NCBI GenBank assembly: GCA_028276165.1
Contig: JAPYWV010000004.1
Span: 1 to 39,324 of the forward strand
DNA: 39,324 nt
DNA from: Acidilobaceae archaeon
GTDB taxonomy: Archaea; Thermoproteota; Thermoprotei_A; Sulfolobales; Acidilobaceae
Direction of reading: 5' to 3'
The translations under genes and the position numbers were made by a program. Position 1 is the stretch's first letter. Every line of letters begins with the position of its first letter. Under the pieces are notes generated by a model. That model was not told the origin of the DNA. It worked only from the letters and a program-made list of their open reading frames with translations, and made no database searches. This document shows, in pieces, positions 17,639 through 34,974 of this stretch.

Positions 17639-18547
17639 TTAGATTTTCGTAAACCTCCTCTTTAAGCATAGCTCAGCCTCTCTTATAGGGTCTCGCGTAT
17701 TCAAACCCCTTACGTAAAACCACTCATTGGACTCGAACATCTCCACGTTCTCACCACCTATTATCGTGAGGAAGGAGCTCACCACCCTTTTACCCCTCTC
17801 GTCTAACTCTAGCTTCACCACCCTCCCCCTACTTTGCTCTCTACAGTTAGCGATATAGCCTTCCAGGACTAAACAGTCATTCACATAGTAGAAGCCTGTT
17901 TTAAACCTAGTGGTTCCAATGATCACATCCCTATCCTCTACCTTAATGCACCCCGTAATCCTCGATTGTCTACCTCTAAACCACGTCTCGACCAGGATAT
18001 CCGGTAGAACGTTGATATCAAGTTGGAGTCTTAGCGAGTAGCTTGGTATGGCTGCATCCCCTGCTACCACCTCTAGAACATGGGATCTACCTATCCTACG
18101 GCCCTTGACGCATAGTAGTGGGAGCTCCTCCAGCACATCGTTTAACCTCGTGGACACGAGAGGGTCTATGCATGGGGCCGCCACACTCCTCCTAAGCTCC
18201 TCCAGGCTCCTAGCTAGCGGTAGCATGCTGTTAAATGTTAGCTCAAGCCCTTTAACCAGGAAGTCTACAAGCTGCCTCTCCTCCCCCACCAAGCCCCCAG
18301 CTGGTATTATGCTTTGAAGCCAAACACTACCCACCAGCATGGCGACAGTGCATCCACTCTTAGACTCTCTCAACTGGTTAACCATTATACTGTGTAGAAG
18401 CCTTCTCACAAGCTCATCTACGCTAACGTACTCCGTAGAGCATACATCAACACCGAAAACAGTTGATATGAGTGACGCCTCCTCCCTTGTAAGCTCAACC
18501 TTCAGCCTCCAGTACCCGTTAACCTTAGAAGCCTCTATCAGCCTCAA
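17639..18547 (-). CDS. hypothetical protein (302 aa), third gene of the ParA cassette
   Basis: Co-directional, 5 nt downstream of the RHH-like gene; no family recognised. Confidence 0.6.
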   Translation of the reverse strand: MRLIEASKVNGYWRLKVELTREEASLISTVFGVDVCSTEYVSVDELVRRLLHSIMVNQLRESKSGCTVAMLVGSVWLQSIIPAGGLVGEERQLVDFLVKGLELTFNSMLPLARSLEELRRSVAAPCIDPLVSTRLNDVLEELPLLCVKGRRIGRSHVLEVVAGDAAIPSYSLRLQLDINVLPDILVETWFRGRQSRITGCIKVEDRDVIIGTTRFKTGFYYVNDCLVLEGYIANCREQSRGRVVKLELDERGKRVVSSFLTIIGGENVEMFESNEWFYVRGLNTRDPIREAELCLKRRFTKI

Positions 18548-18552
18548 CCCCC

Positions 18553-19161
18553 CTACCCTCTAATCCTCCTTCTTAGGAGCCTGGCGACGTAACCGTAGTA
18601 CATTGATAGGAGGTTGACGTTATTGAACTTAATGGCTTTAACTGAGCCCTCCTTCTCCACAATATCTATCCCGAAGGCCTTCGCTACACCTCTAATCTCT
18701 TCAACCCTACCTAGAATGTAGGTTATGGGGTTTAGCTCCCTACCTCCAACTCTACTCCTACCAACAATCCTTCTAAGCGCGCTGGACAACCTCTCCAGCT
18801 CCTCACCACTCATACCCTCTAGTACGAGCTCTCTAGGTATATCGCCGTAGGCGTCCCTGAGTAGTGTTACAAGCTTACCGAGACTTGAGGCTACCCTCTC
18901 AGCCTTCACCCCCTTCTTGATAAGACCTTTACCCAGTGCTACCTCGATAAGCTTCCTAGTCTCCTCTACAACCTGCTCGTACTTGAAGCGGTAGTGGTCG
19001 TCTATATCCTTTGCTACGCTCACATAGGATCTTATAGCCTCCAATGCTACGAGCTCAACACTAGTACCCTTAATGTAGGCTATCTTCTCTAAAGCCTTGT
19101 AGATCTGCTCTGGGAGCTCCAGCTGGATCACGTTACGCTTATGCTGGCTCAACCCCGCCAA
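18553..19161 (-). CDS. putative RHH-type DNA-binding / partner protein of ParA (202 aa)
   Basis: N-terminus 'NVIQLELPEQIYKALEKIAYIKGTSVELVALEAIRSYV' resembles ribbon-helix-helix; overlaps the parA 3' end by 23 nt. Confidence 0.65.
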   Translation of the reverse strand: MAGLSQHKRNVIQLELPEQIYKALEKIAYIKGTSVELVALEAIRSYVSVAKDIDDHYRFKYEQVVEETRKLIEVALGKGLIKKGVKAERVASSLGKLVTLLRDAYGDIPRELVLEGMSGEELERLSSALRRIVGRSRVGGRELNPITYILGRVEEIRGVAKAFGIDIVEKEGSVKAIKFNNVNLLSMYYGYVARLLRRRIRG

Positions 19162-20083
19162 CCTCCTTCAACTTCATCTCAAACTCTCTAGCTAAACCAC
19201 TTATATCGTTTACCAGCAACCTCTGATCCCTACGACTCCTCTCCCCACCAAATCTACCGTGGAGATGTCTAACAATGTAGGGCTCCCTGGTCCACGGCAT
19301 GTTCCTTAACTTAGTCAGTATCCTGTTGTAATGTATTATGGTGTTAAACACACCACCATAACTGATACCCCCTATGATGCCCGCACCCTTAAGCCTCTCA
19401 AAAGCATCTTTAATCCTCTTCTCAACAGCAGCCTTAACATTGTTTACAACTTGTGTCTCAACAGTGCTAAACTTCATCAAGACAGCTCCTAGGAATGTTG
19501 TAGGCTTCTTCGTATAACTCCTAGCCACGTTGTAGTATGTGTCTATTAGGTAACCCACACTATCAACGCTAAAAGCACCCTTTATAACGGGTGTTATGAT
19601 GTAATCTGTTATAACGGACGCTATGGGGACTACTACACCGTACATTTGGGGTGGTAGGTCTACGATGATGTAATCCAGGTTATGCTTTTGAGCTAGGGAT
19701 CCTAGGATACTCCTAAAGAATTGAACTTTATCCTGTGTAGGCTCTATAACCCTCTGTGCAGCCCACAACATGTACTTTGGATGCGAGGGTACAATGTAGA
19801 GGTTGTCAACACCACCAATGGGGTATACTAGGGGTTCACGGCCTTGGAGTAGAGCCTCGTAGGAGAAAGCGAGGTTGTAGGATTCAGCTCTACCAATGGC
19901 ATCAAGCATGTTAGTCTGCGTTAACAAAGCCTCCGTAAGATTAGCTTGAGGATCGAAATCCACAAGCAGAACACTCCTTTTAGAGAACATGGATAAGCCC
20001 AAACCTAGACATGTGGCTAGAGTAGTCTTACCAACACCCCCCTTGAAAGCCACCACACCGATAAGCACAGTCACTTTAAACAC
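19139..20083 (-). CDS. parA: ParA/Soj/SegA-like partition ATPase
   Basis: Deviant Walker A 'FKGGVGKTTLATCLGLGL', 'VLLVDFDPQANLTEALL', 'DYIIVDLPPQ'. Confidence 0.9.
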   Translation of the reverse strand: MFKVTVLIGVVAFKGGVGKTTLATCLGLGLSMFSKRSVLLVDFDPQANLTEALLTQTNMLDAIGRAESYNLAFSYEALLQGREPLVYPIGGVDNLYIVPSHPKYMLWAAQRVIEPTQDKVQFFRSILGSLAQKHNLDYIIVDLPPQMYGVVVPIASVITDYIITPVIKGAFSVDSVGYLIDTYYNVARSYTKKPTTFLGAVLMKFSTVETQVVNNVKAAVEKRIKDAFERLKGAGIIGGISYGGVFNTIIHYNRILTKLRNMPWTREPYIVRHLHGRFGGERSRRDQRLLVNDISGLAREFEMKLKEVGGVEPA

Positions 20084-20186
20084 ACCTTGATCCCGGGAAA
20101 GCCCCTATGTTAAGTAAGAGCACTTCACATATTTATCTCTTCATCGTCGATATAAGCGTGGATACAGGGGATCAGATTATAAACTG

Positions 20187-31585: not shown

Positions 31586-33703
31586 TTAGTATCCGAAGAG
31601 CTGGTATGATATGTCATAGTGTGCTGTTAGCGGTGTTGTTGTTTGGACGAATATGTAGCCTCCTCTGTACACGTGGCTTAATACCACCATTAGCCTGTCT
31701 GGGAGTCTTGGTAGCACCTCTTTAACCTCCCCTGGTACATCTAGTCTTTCTACGTGTTGGGGTTCCGTTCTAAGTATTATCTTTGTGTTGGCAAGCTGGA
31801 CTATTATGTCGTGGAGGTCTTTGGGGCTGTGGGTACTGAATATAAGGCCTACCCCTCTAGCTCTACCCATCCTAGCTATACGTGATATCATTGACGCCAC
31901 CTGCCTACTAGCCTCCTGCTCCTCCCTAGCACCCCTCTCCTGGGGGAAGAACTGGTGTGCTTCGTCTATGACCACCACTATACTCCTCCCTAGCACCCTT
32001 CTGGCCCACTGTGAGTGCTTCCACTCTATCAGCGCTTGGAGCATCCTGTACGCGGCCATACGGGGGCCCTCCAGGCTCTCCAACCCCTTATCCATAGGCC
32101 ATTTAAGATCTAGCACTATAGGGGCTCCTAGCATCTCAGCCTCCGAAACTATATCCTCCCATCTAGGTTCACTCATCAGGGTAACCCTGCTTGCAGGCCA
32201 CCCGCCCATAACAGCTACATCGACTATCTCAGTGTCGAGTAGTGATAGCAACCTCCTATAGAGGGCTCTATACGTCTCCCTATGTGGGTTGGAGAGCTCT
32301 AGAACCTCAAGACAGTCGTCTACTAGATCCTCTAGGGTCCTATCGAAGCCTTCAAGCTTAATAGTCCTTAGGAGGCTCTCATCACTAACACCCTTAGCTA
32401 TAACCCTAGGTGCTATCACCTCCCTTATGGACTCGAACAACTCATTCCTATCACCACTCCTAACACCATCATTGTACGCCTGGAGAGCTCCTAGTATGGC
32501 TTGGAGTGGTGGGTAGAGGCTTGTCTTAGACCTCCTCCTAAACCCCCTCCTAATCCTCTCTAGGAGGGCTCTAGCAGCCTCAGTTAAACCGGGCATTAGG
32601 GATGAAACTTTATCAGAGTCGAGTATAGTGGTGTTTATAACGTATGGTACCAGTACCAGGGGGCCCCATGGGGCTTGAGCTCTACACACAACACTCCTAC
32701 CTTCCTTAACCAAGCAGTTCAAATCCCTCATCTTAGCCCCCACTAGGGGTTCTATACTCTCCTCATAGTACATCCTAGCAATACTCCTTGCAATCTCCAG
32801 TAGCGATATCCTGTCAATGCTGAACTCCTCGTAGACGACCTCCACAACCCTTAGTGGTAGTGGTGTTACAACGACTAGAGCTCTAGGCGGCCTAACACCC
32901 TTATAGGCCGTTAGCGCCACGGGGTCTGAGGGGCTCCTAGCGGGTTCTAGGGGTAGTTGTATGAAGTCCTGGTTCATATCCACAGCTACCACTACGGGTG
33001 TGTTCTGAGACCACTCTGAGTACATTGATGCTATCATGTTCTTGATCAACGTCGTCTTACCACTACCGGTAGTCCCGGTTATCAGGACGTGTTGTAGGAG
33101 AGCCCTATACGGTAACCTCACGGTTAGAGCCCCGCCTTTAACAAGACCTGATGGTGTTGCAAGGGATCCTATAACGGGGCCCCTCTCACTCCTTAAACCT
33201 AGTAGTTTTGCCAACACCTCAGGCTTAGGGTCTATTACGGGGCTTTGAGGCTCCAACCCTATGGTTGCTGGTACTGGCTCGCTATCAACCTCAGGGTCTA
33301 GCTCTAGCAGGATCCTAGCCTTAACCTTAGTTGTTGTTAGGAGCCCTGAGGGTTCTGGTTTAAACTCGTAGCTTGATAGTGGAGGCTCTACGCCTATAAC
33401 TGCTAGCTCATCCCTCCTCTTAATAGCAACAATCCTTAGTAGGACTAGCCTACCAGACTTAGGCTCTACAACTGCAACGTACTCACCAATCCTCTGGACA
33501 GCCCCACCCCTCTCAGAGTAGTACACTTCAGGCTCTACATCGAACTCCACCAGCCCCTCCTCGCTAACCTCAACCCTAGAATACCTTGAAATCCTACCCA
33601 CAACATCCCCGTACCTCGATGCCCTGGAGTACGCTTGCTCCAGGAGCCTCGATACAGTATCCAGAGGCCCCCTCTCCCTGGCACCCGTGGCTACTCTCTC
33701 CAC
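31586..33703 (-). CDS. herA: HerA-like bipolar helicase/ATPase (705 aa)
   Basis: 'HVLITGTTGSGKTTLIKNMIASM' Walker A, 'SIVVVIDEAHQFFPQERG' Walker B, 'RIARMGRARGVGLIFSTHSPKDLHDIIVQLANTKIILR'. Confidence 0.9.
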   Translation of the reverse strand: MERVATGARERGPLDTVSRLLEQAYSRASRYGDVVGRISRYSRVEVSEEGLVEFDVEPEVYYSERGGAVQRIGEYVAVVEPKSGRLVLLRIVAIKRRDELAVIGVEPPLSSYEFKPEPSGLLTTTKVKARILLELDPEVDSEPVPATIGLEPQSPVIDPKPEVLAKLLGLRSERGPVIGSLATPSGLVKGGALTVRLPYRALLQHVLITGTTGSGKTTLIKNMIASMYSEWSQNTPVVVAVDMNQDFIQLPLEPARSPSDPVALTAYKGVRPPRALVVVTPLPLRVVEVVYEEFSIDRISLLEIARSIARMYYEESIEPLVGAKMRDLNCLVKEGRSVVCRAQAPWGPLVLVPYVINTTILDSDKVSSLMPGLTEAARALLERIRRGFRRRSKTSLYPPLQAILGALQAYNDGVRSGDRNELFESIREVIAPRVIAKGVSDESLLRTIKLEGFDRTLEDLVDDCLEVLELSNPHRETYRALYRRLLSLLDTEIVDVAVMGGWPASRVTLMSEPRWEDIVSEAEMLGAPIVLDLKWPMDKGLESLEGPRMAAYRMLQALIEWKHSQWARRVLGRSIVVVIDEAHQFFPQERGAREEQEASRQVASMISRIARMGRARGVGLIFSTHSPKDLHDIIVQLANTKIILRTEPQHVERLDVPGEVKEVLPRLPDRLMVVLSHVYRGGYIFVQTTTPLTAHYDISYQLFGY

Positions 33704-34974
33704 GAGATCTCAGCCTCTCTAAGACTCCAGTAGCTTAGTGGAGCTCCAACACTAATAATGTTCATTAGAAGGGCTTTCTTAAGAGCATGGGATAGGAACG
33801 AGGATCTTAGATCGGAGAGCCTTATGGATAGAGGTTCAAGAGCACCCCTCCCCACGCTATCACCACCTATAACGGCGTCCGGCTCTAAACCCATATCCTG
33901 GAGTATATTTAGCGTCTTGAGAGTGTACTCCAACCTGTAGACTCTAACCAGTGGTGGTGATAGCTGGAATTTACCCGGGGGTATGACGATGTACTGAACA
34001 ACCTTCTCCAGAACCCCCACCTCGGGTAGCTGGGGTGTCCTAACGATTATCCTAGGTGTAACGTATATCCTACCAGGCACCCTATCACCTAGCATTGTCA
34101 TAGCCCTTAGTATGATACTCTTATCACCCTCCATAATGTCACCTCTAATACCTTCAAGCCCCCTCGTCCTGGAGAGTATCGTGCTCTTCTCAACCCTCTT
34201 AACAACACCTATAACGGGTACACCCCTAGACTCAAGACCCCTTATAGCCTTAACCCTACCTTCCAGGAGTTTAACCCACACATCCCTAATCCACGGTTGA
34301 ACATCCCTCGTGAGAGCCTTAGCTACAACGTAGAGAGGCCCATCGACCATAACAACGGGGTTGACTTGAGCCTCTAAGAGTTCCCCTAGAACCTCTAGAA
34401 CCCAGTTCTCAAGGCTAACCCTCATCTCATCACAAGCCTCACCAACACTATAGCTTATATCAAAGGGCCTACCGGATGGGTTAACAGTTGATACAAGTGG
34501 ATCGTCCAAGCTAAACTGAACCCCGGCATTGGATAGTATGTAGAAGACCGGGTGCAGCCTACCGGTGTAACGTAGAGGGCCTAGGCTAGGCCACTCAAAC
34601 GCAATAGAACCCAGGGAGCTTATGGCGGCAACAGCGCCTACAACAACGTCCGCCACAGGAGTCTCAACATGCCTAGAGCTTGAATCCACACCAACAGGGG
34701 TGAACATAACACCATCACGGTAAGGTCTCCTAGCGATCAGAAGCCTGGAAGAGTACTCCATGAGGGATGCCGAGAACTCACCTGAATCCTCAACAGGCTC
34801 CCTAACCCAGATGACATCATCAAGCCTGAGAACACTCCTAGAGGCATAGGTGGAGCTTGCAGAACTAGCCCTCCTAATAACCTCAACAACCCTGGATAGA
34901 GAGGCCATAATAGTGCTACCGACAACCTCCAAAATCTCAACCCCAACAAAGCACACGCACATACCAAATATCAT
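33691..34974 (-). CDS. nurA: NurA-domain nuclease
   Basis: 'TPVGVDSSSRHVETPVADVVVGAVAAI', 'PVVMVDGPLYVVAKAL', 'GVPVIGVVKRVEKSTIL'; overlaps herA by 13 nt. Confidence 0.87.
   Translation of the reverse strand: MIFGMCVCFVGVEILEVVGSTIMASLSRVVEVIRRASSASSTYASRSVLRLDDVIWVREPVEDSGEFSASLMEYSSRLLIARRPYRDGVMFTPVGVDSSSRHVETPVADVVVGAVAAISSLGSIAFEWPSLGPLRYTGRLHPVFYILSNAGVQFSLDDPLVSTVNPSGRPFDISYSVGEACDEMRVSLENWVLEVLGELLEAQVNPVVMVDGPLYVVAKALTRDVQPWIRDVWVKLLEGRVKAIRGLESRGVPVIGVVKRVEKSTILSRTRGLEGIRGDIMEGDKSIILRAMTMLGDRVPGRIYVTPRIIVRTPQLPEVGVLEKVVQYIVIPPGKFQLSPPLVRVYRLEYTLKTLNILQDMGLEPDAVIGGDSVGRGALEPLSIRLSDLRSSFLSHALKKALLMNIISVGAPLSYWSLREAEISWRE

Follow-up and report, generated by a model that had tools for sequence, protein, structure and literature searches.

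A three-gene cassette of a ParA-type ATPase, a ribbon-helix-helix partner and a conserved third protein in an Acidilobaceae archaeon

Cassette layout and gene calls

Three tightly packed minus-strand genes were found in the window (the whole 39,324-nt stretch of Acidilobaceae DNA that was analysed), flanked by ordinary metabolic genes (acetoacetate decarboxylase-like and beta-eliminating lyase family protein). An earlier note on this DNA had described such a trio, and its open reading frames were confirmed exactly, with a 23-nt overlap between parA and the ribbon-helix-helix (RHH) gene as called and a 5-nt gap between the RHH and third genes. The features are as follows:

19139..20083, minus strand: ParA-type ATPase with deviant Walker A motif, 314 aa, GTG start (from motifs, Pfam and PDB matches)
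18553..19161, minus strand: 202-aa RHH partner, with 19152 as the more probable start; N-terminal RHH and predicted C-terminal winged-helix-like domain
17639..18547, minus strand: third protein, 302 aa, TTG start; conserved domain at residues 1 to ~121
20084..20186, minus strand: intergenic region upstream of parA, the sole space for a promoter or operator

Alignment with relatives favoured a TTG at 19152 over 19161 as the start of the RHH gene, so the real parA/RHH overlap would be ~14 nt. Against the nearest species (G002, a sister species in the window genus), dN/dS was 0.11 for ParA, 0.10 for the RHH protein and 0.23 for the third protein (amino acid identity, 81%, 69% and 59%, respectively). 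This purifying selection indicates that all three are real, selected genes; the low dN/dS, together with same-order homologues in two other congeneric species, argues against chance open reading frames. Computed pI values were 9.5 (ParA), 9.7 (RHH) and 7.5 (third protein). The cassette has the same GC content as neighbouring genes, and recent transfer, as judged by GC, was unsupported.

An intergenic stretch upstream of parA (GATGAAGAGATAAATATGT) is common to the window and G002. No convincing iterated or long palindromic centromere-like repeats were detected around the cassette or in three relatives, and a search for RNA genes found none. Elsewhere in the window (31586-34974, minus strand), HerA-type ATPase-like and NurA-like genes overlap by 13 nt and appear, from sequence, to be an ordinary DNA-repair pair.

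The ParA-type ATPase and its RHH partner

The window ParA carried the clear deviant Walker A motif reported by the earlier note (KGGVGKT, with the signature lysine), which was invariant across 13 homologues; the motifs DxDPQxN and PPQMY were also kept in these, and Walker A' (D-x-D-P-Q) and Walker B are likewise present. The protein was assigned to AAA_31/CbiA (Pfam AAA_31, 78.7 bits; cut-off, 27). Its best PDB matches were 5u1j and 5k5z (E, ~1e-20; annotated as uncharacterized protein and ParA, respectively), which we take to be pNOB8-type ParA structures, and SegA (7dut) matched at E 5.8e-13. In the tree, the 12 tested members formed one clade (support, 99/99), apart from the SegA of G104 (presumably S. 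tokodaii) and beside pNOB8-type ParA and a separate ParA-RHH group, the latter placement with weak support (81/59). Tree and PDB matches both put the window ParA nearer to pNOB8-type ParA than to SegA, subject to that weak support for the pNOB8 grouping. As a member of this ATPase class, the protein would be expected to dimerise, to bind DNA when ATP is present and to have its ATPase stimulated by a partner.

Close ParA relatives (E < 1e-30) occurred in 13/197 genomes of the order, spread over three genera: the window, G002 and G004 (window genus), two genomes of genus g67 and eight of Ignisphaera (g16). No SegA-like ATPase was found in the tested genomes carrying window-type ParA; other ATPase matches in these genomes were weaker, and those inspected look to be of the CooC, Mrp or ArsA kind.

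In the AlphaFold model of the RHH partner (mean pLDDT, 79), RHH helices at the N-terminus are followed by a long helix, and the C-terminal part forms a helix-helix-hairpin resembling a winged helix. Fold matches to the N-terminus were short RHH proteins, including VapB (5x3t; probability, 0.97), CdbA (6sbw; 0.92) and further CopG/NikA-like proteins (0.98 to 1.00), and winged-helix matches to the C-terminal part were weak. Structure prediction and fold matches thus back the RHH-like start that had been proposed for this 202-aa protein, ahead of a helical region. In Pfam, NCBIfam and PADLOC, no family scored above threshold. All five RHH partner sequences, from both genera that have them, share a YG motif (YG..T) followed by a basic C-terminal tail (conserved RLLRRRIRG in the window protein). 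Outside the RHH, similarity between the proteins of the window genus and g67 was suggestive only (E, about 0.01 to 0.02). A profile search of 214 genomes recovered the partner only in the window genus and g67, with none in ParA-bearing Ignisphaera.

The third protein and its distribution

The 302-aa third protein had no match in Pfam, NCBIfam, PADLOC or PDB, and its best PHROG match was below threshold (E, 0.096). This agrees with the earlier note, which could place it in no recognised family and had allowed for an unrelated metabolic one; it matched none. Its N-terminal domain is homologous to small proteins of 119 to 128 aa that adjoin ParA in 10/10 ParA-bearing genomes of g67 and Ignisphaera. 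The g67 operon runs ParA, RHH (173 to 175 aa), then a 119- to 124-aa protein; in Ignisphaera, parA and the gene for a 120- to 128-aa protein lie within ~1.5 kb of each other, separated by a nitroreductase gene. The small proteins of both genera form one family (hhalign, 98%), which matched the N-terminal part of the window third protein in profile-profile comparison (E, 3e-7; 66 columns). Run against several hundred neighbourhood open reading frames (E < 1), the small-protein profile recovered only its own family and the three long proteins; searching in the other direction, with the long third proteins, matched the small-protein family alone. A plain search of 197 genomes with the window protein gave a single match outside the genus (E, 8e-4), to an Ignisphaera small protein adjoining ParA. 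Four residues (G32, D34, C36 and C66; G-x-D-x-C plus a second Cys) were invariant in 14/14 family members. The C-terminal part is confined to the window genus; by sequence comparison, the conserved unit is the N-terminal ~120 aa, found as a stand-alone protein elsewhere.

AlphaFold modelled residues 1 to 121 at pLDDT mostly 70 to 90 (two strands, helix, helix, strand, two helices) and the remainder mostly at pLDDT <50. No structural match was found among solved structures for this model, which is weak beyond residue 121 and by itself is no evidence of novelty. The window protein is near neutral in charge, and the family is neutral to acidic. Internal duplication gave no signal.

Among 229 genomes of the class, 14 had the family, and all but one of these (13) carry window-type ParA; the exception (G106, Ignisphaera) has a diverged copy, and a fifteenth match (G121; E, 0.006) was too weak to be counted. 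Co-occurrence with ParA was therefore 13/13 by genome and, by lineage, spanned three genera, with matched absences of both in two of the three (three window-genus species, and G047 in Ignisphaera). In every ParA-bearing genome, the family adjoins ParA: right after ParA-RHH in the window genus and g67, and nearby in Ignisphaera. Of the five other window-genus species, two had the three genes in this order (G002, with the same flanks, and G004, at a different place), and the other three lacked all three genes; cassette flanks differ between species. Several sampled genomes are incomplete metagenome-assembled genomes, and the window's own is 87% complete. Conserved linkage, on which the earlier note had made its proposal depend, held for ParA and the third protein in three genera, and failed for the RHH gene, kept in two and missing in Ignisphaera. 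Because Ignisphaera keeps ParA and the third protein without the RHH partner, these two form the conserved core.

A diverged second type of small third protein, unlinked to ParA, was seen in two Ignisphaera genomes (L181:5379-5807 and L184:4122-4316), the L184 copy being interrupted by a stop; in G066, this diverged type is a second, broken copy of the family. In most Ignisphaera loci, the small third gene is directly followed by a LysE-type translocator gene, which in G004 lies upstream of the cassette (L041:3237-4271, L051:7681-8361) and is absent from the window neighbourhood. It was rejected as a fourth cassette component since the family is widespread (88/214 genomes of the order), and the link is probably coincidental. 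In G004, a co-directional gene for a Tfx-family (TFX_C) regulator (L051:7138-7596) immediately precedes parA; the window lacks it. The distance from parA to the nearest orc1/cdc6 was ~260 kb in one complete Ignisphaera genome and ~150 kb in another.

Proposed function, alternatives and known systems

Given the observed gene order, protein families, ParA clade, co-occurrence and purifying selection, we consider the cassette, at a probability of roughly one-half, to be a divergent chromosomal ParA-type DNA segregation or positioning module with an undescribed adaptor family, belonging to neither SegAB(C) nor AspA-ParB-ParA. Neighbourhood and phylogeny suggest how DNA binding, ATPase cycle, protein contacts, cargo and function might fit together. 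The basic, pNOB8-like ParA would bind nucleoid DNA with ATP. The RHH/winged-helix protein would serve both as centromere-binding protein and as autoregulator by recognising a particular DNA site, its own promoter probably being among the targets; the conserved basic tail at its C-terminus is a candidate ParA contact. We propose the third protein as a ParA adaptor or regulator that would connect ParA with its DNA-bound partner or with some other cargo, a position held by ParB in AspA-ParB-ParA, where ParB bridges DNA-bound AspA and ParA (PMC5120986). As a ParA adaptor, this candidate family had no match in the family and structure libraries searched. As the third protein is kept where the RHH partner is missing, we regard it as the more fundamental ParA partner, and since it accompanies window-type ParA in every relative having that ParA, it probably belongs to the core of a small, undescribed machine for DNA segregation or positioning. 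The lack of the RHH partner in Ignisphaera suggests that a DNA-binding partner is non-obligatory or encoded elsewhere.

Where no SegA was found, the cassette could serve in place of SegAB, and its absence from sister species indicates that it is not universally needed. Such patchiness (3/6 window-genus species without all three genes) ill suits an essential chromosome-segregation machine; the lack of a detected centromere-like repeat and the distance of the Ignisphaera locus from orc1/cdc6 also count against a segregation module. A more specific version, possible though doubtful, is that ParA has an obligatory partner from an undescribed family of small non-DNA-binding domains (G-x-D-x-C...C), the two acting alone in Ignisphaera and an RHH module having been gained or lost elsewhere; this would be a new class of ParA adaptor, and crenarchaea without SegAB might rely on the pair as their system for chromosome segregation or positioning. 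We know of no account of how these crenarchaea segregate or organise their chromosomes. The cassette makes that question testable: from genomes in which no SegA was seen, it supplies a conserved set that is small and can be expressed (ParA, RHH and third protein, or ParA plus the ~125-aa protein in Ignisphaera).

The earlier idea of a divergent archaeal segregation or cargo-positioning system with an extra component is borne out as regards the divergent ParA clade and the conserved third protein; the RHH partner is not conserved throughout, and segregation itself we infer. As for its being undescribed, the protein families are new, but the concept of a ParA/RHH pair with a third protein is not, SegC having been published (PMC11381335). 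A literature search, with most subscription journals outside its scope, found no paper on the window ParA clade or its partner.

It is somewhat unlikely that ParA and the third protein instead control where, or in what dose, a protein complex sits on the nucleoid, by McdAB- or MinD-like logic, with the RHH protein as operon regulator only. The eight Ignisphaera genomes with ParA and third protein and no RHH would fit this, as would a neutral to acidic third protein (no obvious DNA binder), patchy occurrence and the failure to find a centromere; however, no dedicated cargo gene is conserved beside the cassette, the LysE-type neighbour being widespread and absent near the window cassette, and the ParA is closest to plasmid-partition ParAs. 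That its nearest relatives include the pNOB8 plasmid type, together with patchy distribution and species-specific flanks, could also mean that the partition cassette came from an integrated plasmid or virus and was domesticated or survives as a remnant, the chromosome either maintaining it or letting it decay. We judge this origin improbable, as no integrase or plasmid genes were seen in the window, plasmid and viral collections yielded no close relative (generic ParAs only, and nothing for the third protein), and neighbour-like GC content, purifying selection on all genes and ancient divergence over three genera speak against it.

An anti-virus defence or toxin-antitoxin cassette is very unlikely: RHH proteins are common as antitoxins and the distribution is accessory, but there was no significant PADLOC match (best E, 0.01), the third protein occurs without RHH, no defence neighbours were seen, and ParA is not a usual component of such systems. 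Membership in the Sulfolobales SegAB(C) chromosome segregation system is scarcely credible, even though the make-up recalls SegA-SegB-SegC; in Sulfolobaceae, too, the gene for a ParA-family ATPase overlaps a downstream RHH gene and a third protein is associated (PMC11381335, PMC12284271). The window ParA falls in a clade outside the SegA group, and its RHH partner is larger, has the RHH at the N-terminus and showed no detectable match to SegB (one SegB sequence compared). SegC (165 aa, encoded upstream of segA, divergently transcribed, in three genera only, with a ThDP-type fold) differs from the third protein in size, gene position and orientation, and the two are unrelated in sequence (PMC11381335, PMC12284271). 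The SegC chain 8WQ8 was absent from the PDB matches of the third protein up to E 10, as was a SegC-like fold from the structural matches of its weak model. The SegB palindrome core AGA(G/C)TCT occurred at chance level (11 in the window versus 10.9 expected), with none between 18369 and 27809, and a SegB motif upstream of the ATPase gene was accordingly rejected.

Bacterial plasmid type Ib partition (ParF-ParG, delta-omega) has ParA followed by an RHH centromere-binding protein, the same gene order as in the window cassette; in contrast, ParG and omega are small and without a winged-helix domain, and there is no third protein. Two-gene cassettes of ParA and an RHH/integrase-SAM protein (G072 and others) likewise have a related ParA with an overlapping or adjacent RHH partner, and differ in the phage-integrase SAM-like domain at the C-terminus of that partner (1.7e-5 in Pfam for one member), the separate ParA clade (100/99) and the lack of a third gene. 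Such an arrangement, ParA then a protein with an RHH-like segment at its N-terminus and the SAM-like domain at its C-terminus, was seen in five genomes (L048:5228-6545, L049:4367-5716, L052:2410-3661, L176:263-1528 and L183:3883-5200) and looks like an undescribed partition pair with a borrowed integrase DNA-binding domain.

AspA-ParB-ParA (pNOB8 and related chromosomal loci) resembles the window cassette as a three-protein archaeal partition cassette and perhaps in its ParA, which is presumably the best PDB match, although the tree groups the window ParA with pNOB8-type ParAs at no more than 81/59 support. Neither a PadR/wHTH gene of the AspA kind nor a ParB carrying a Spo0J-like or CenpA-like domain was found beside the window cassette. 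The window cassette has instead a predicted RHH plus winged-helix protein and an unrelated third family, and its ParA gene comes first in the operon, whereas that of AspA-ParB-ParA comes last.
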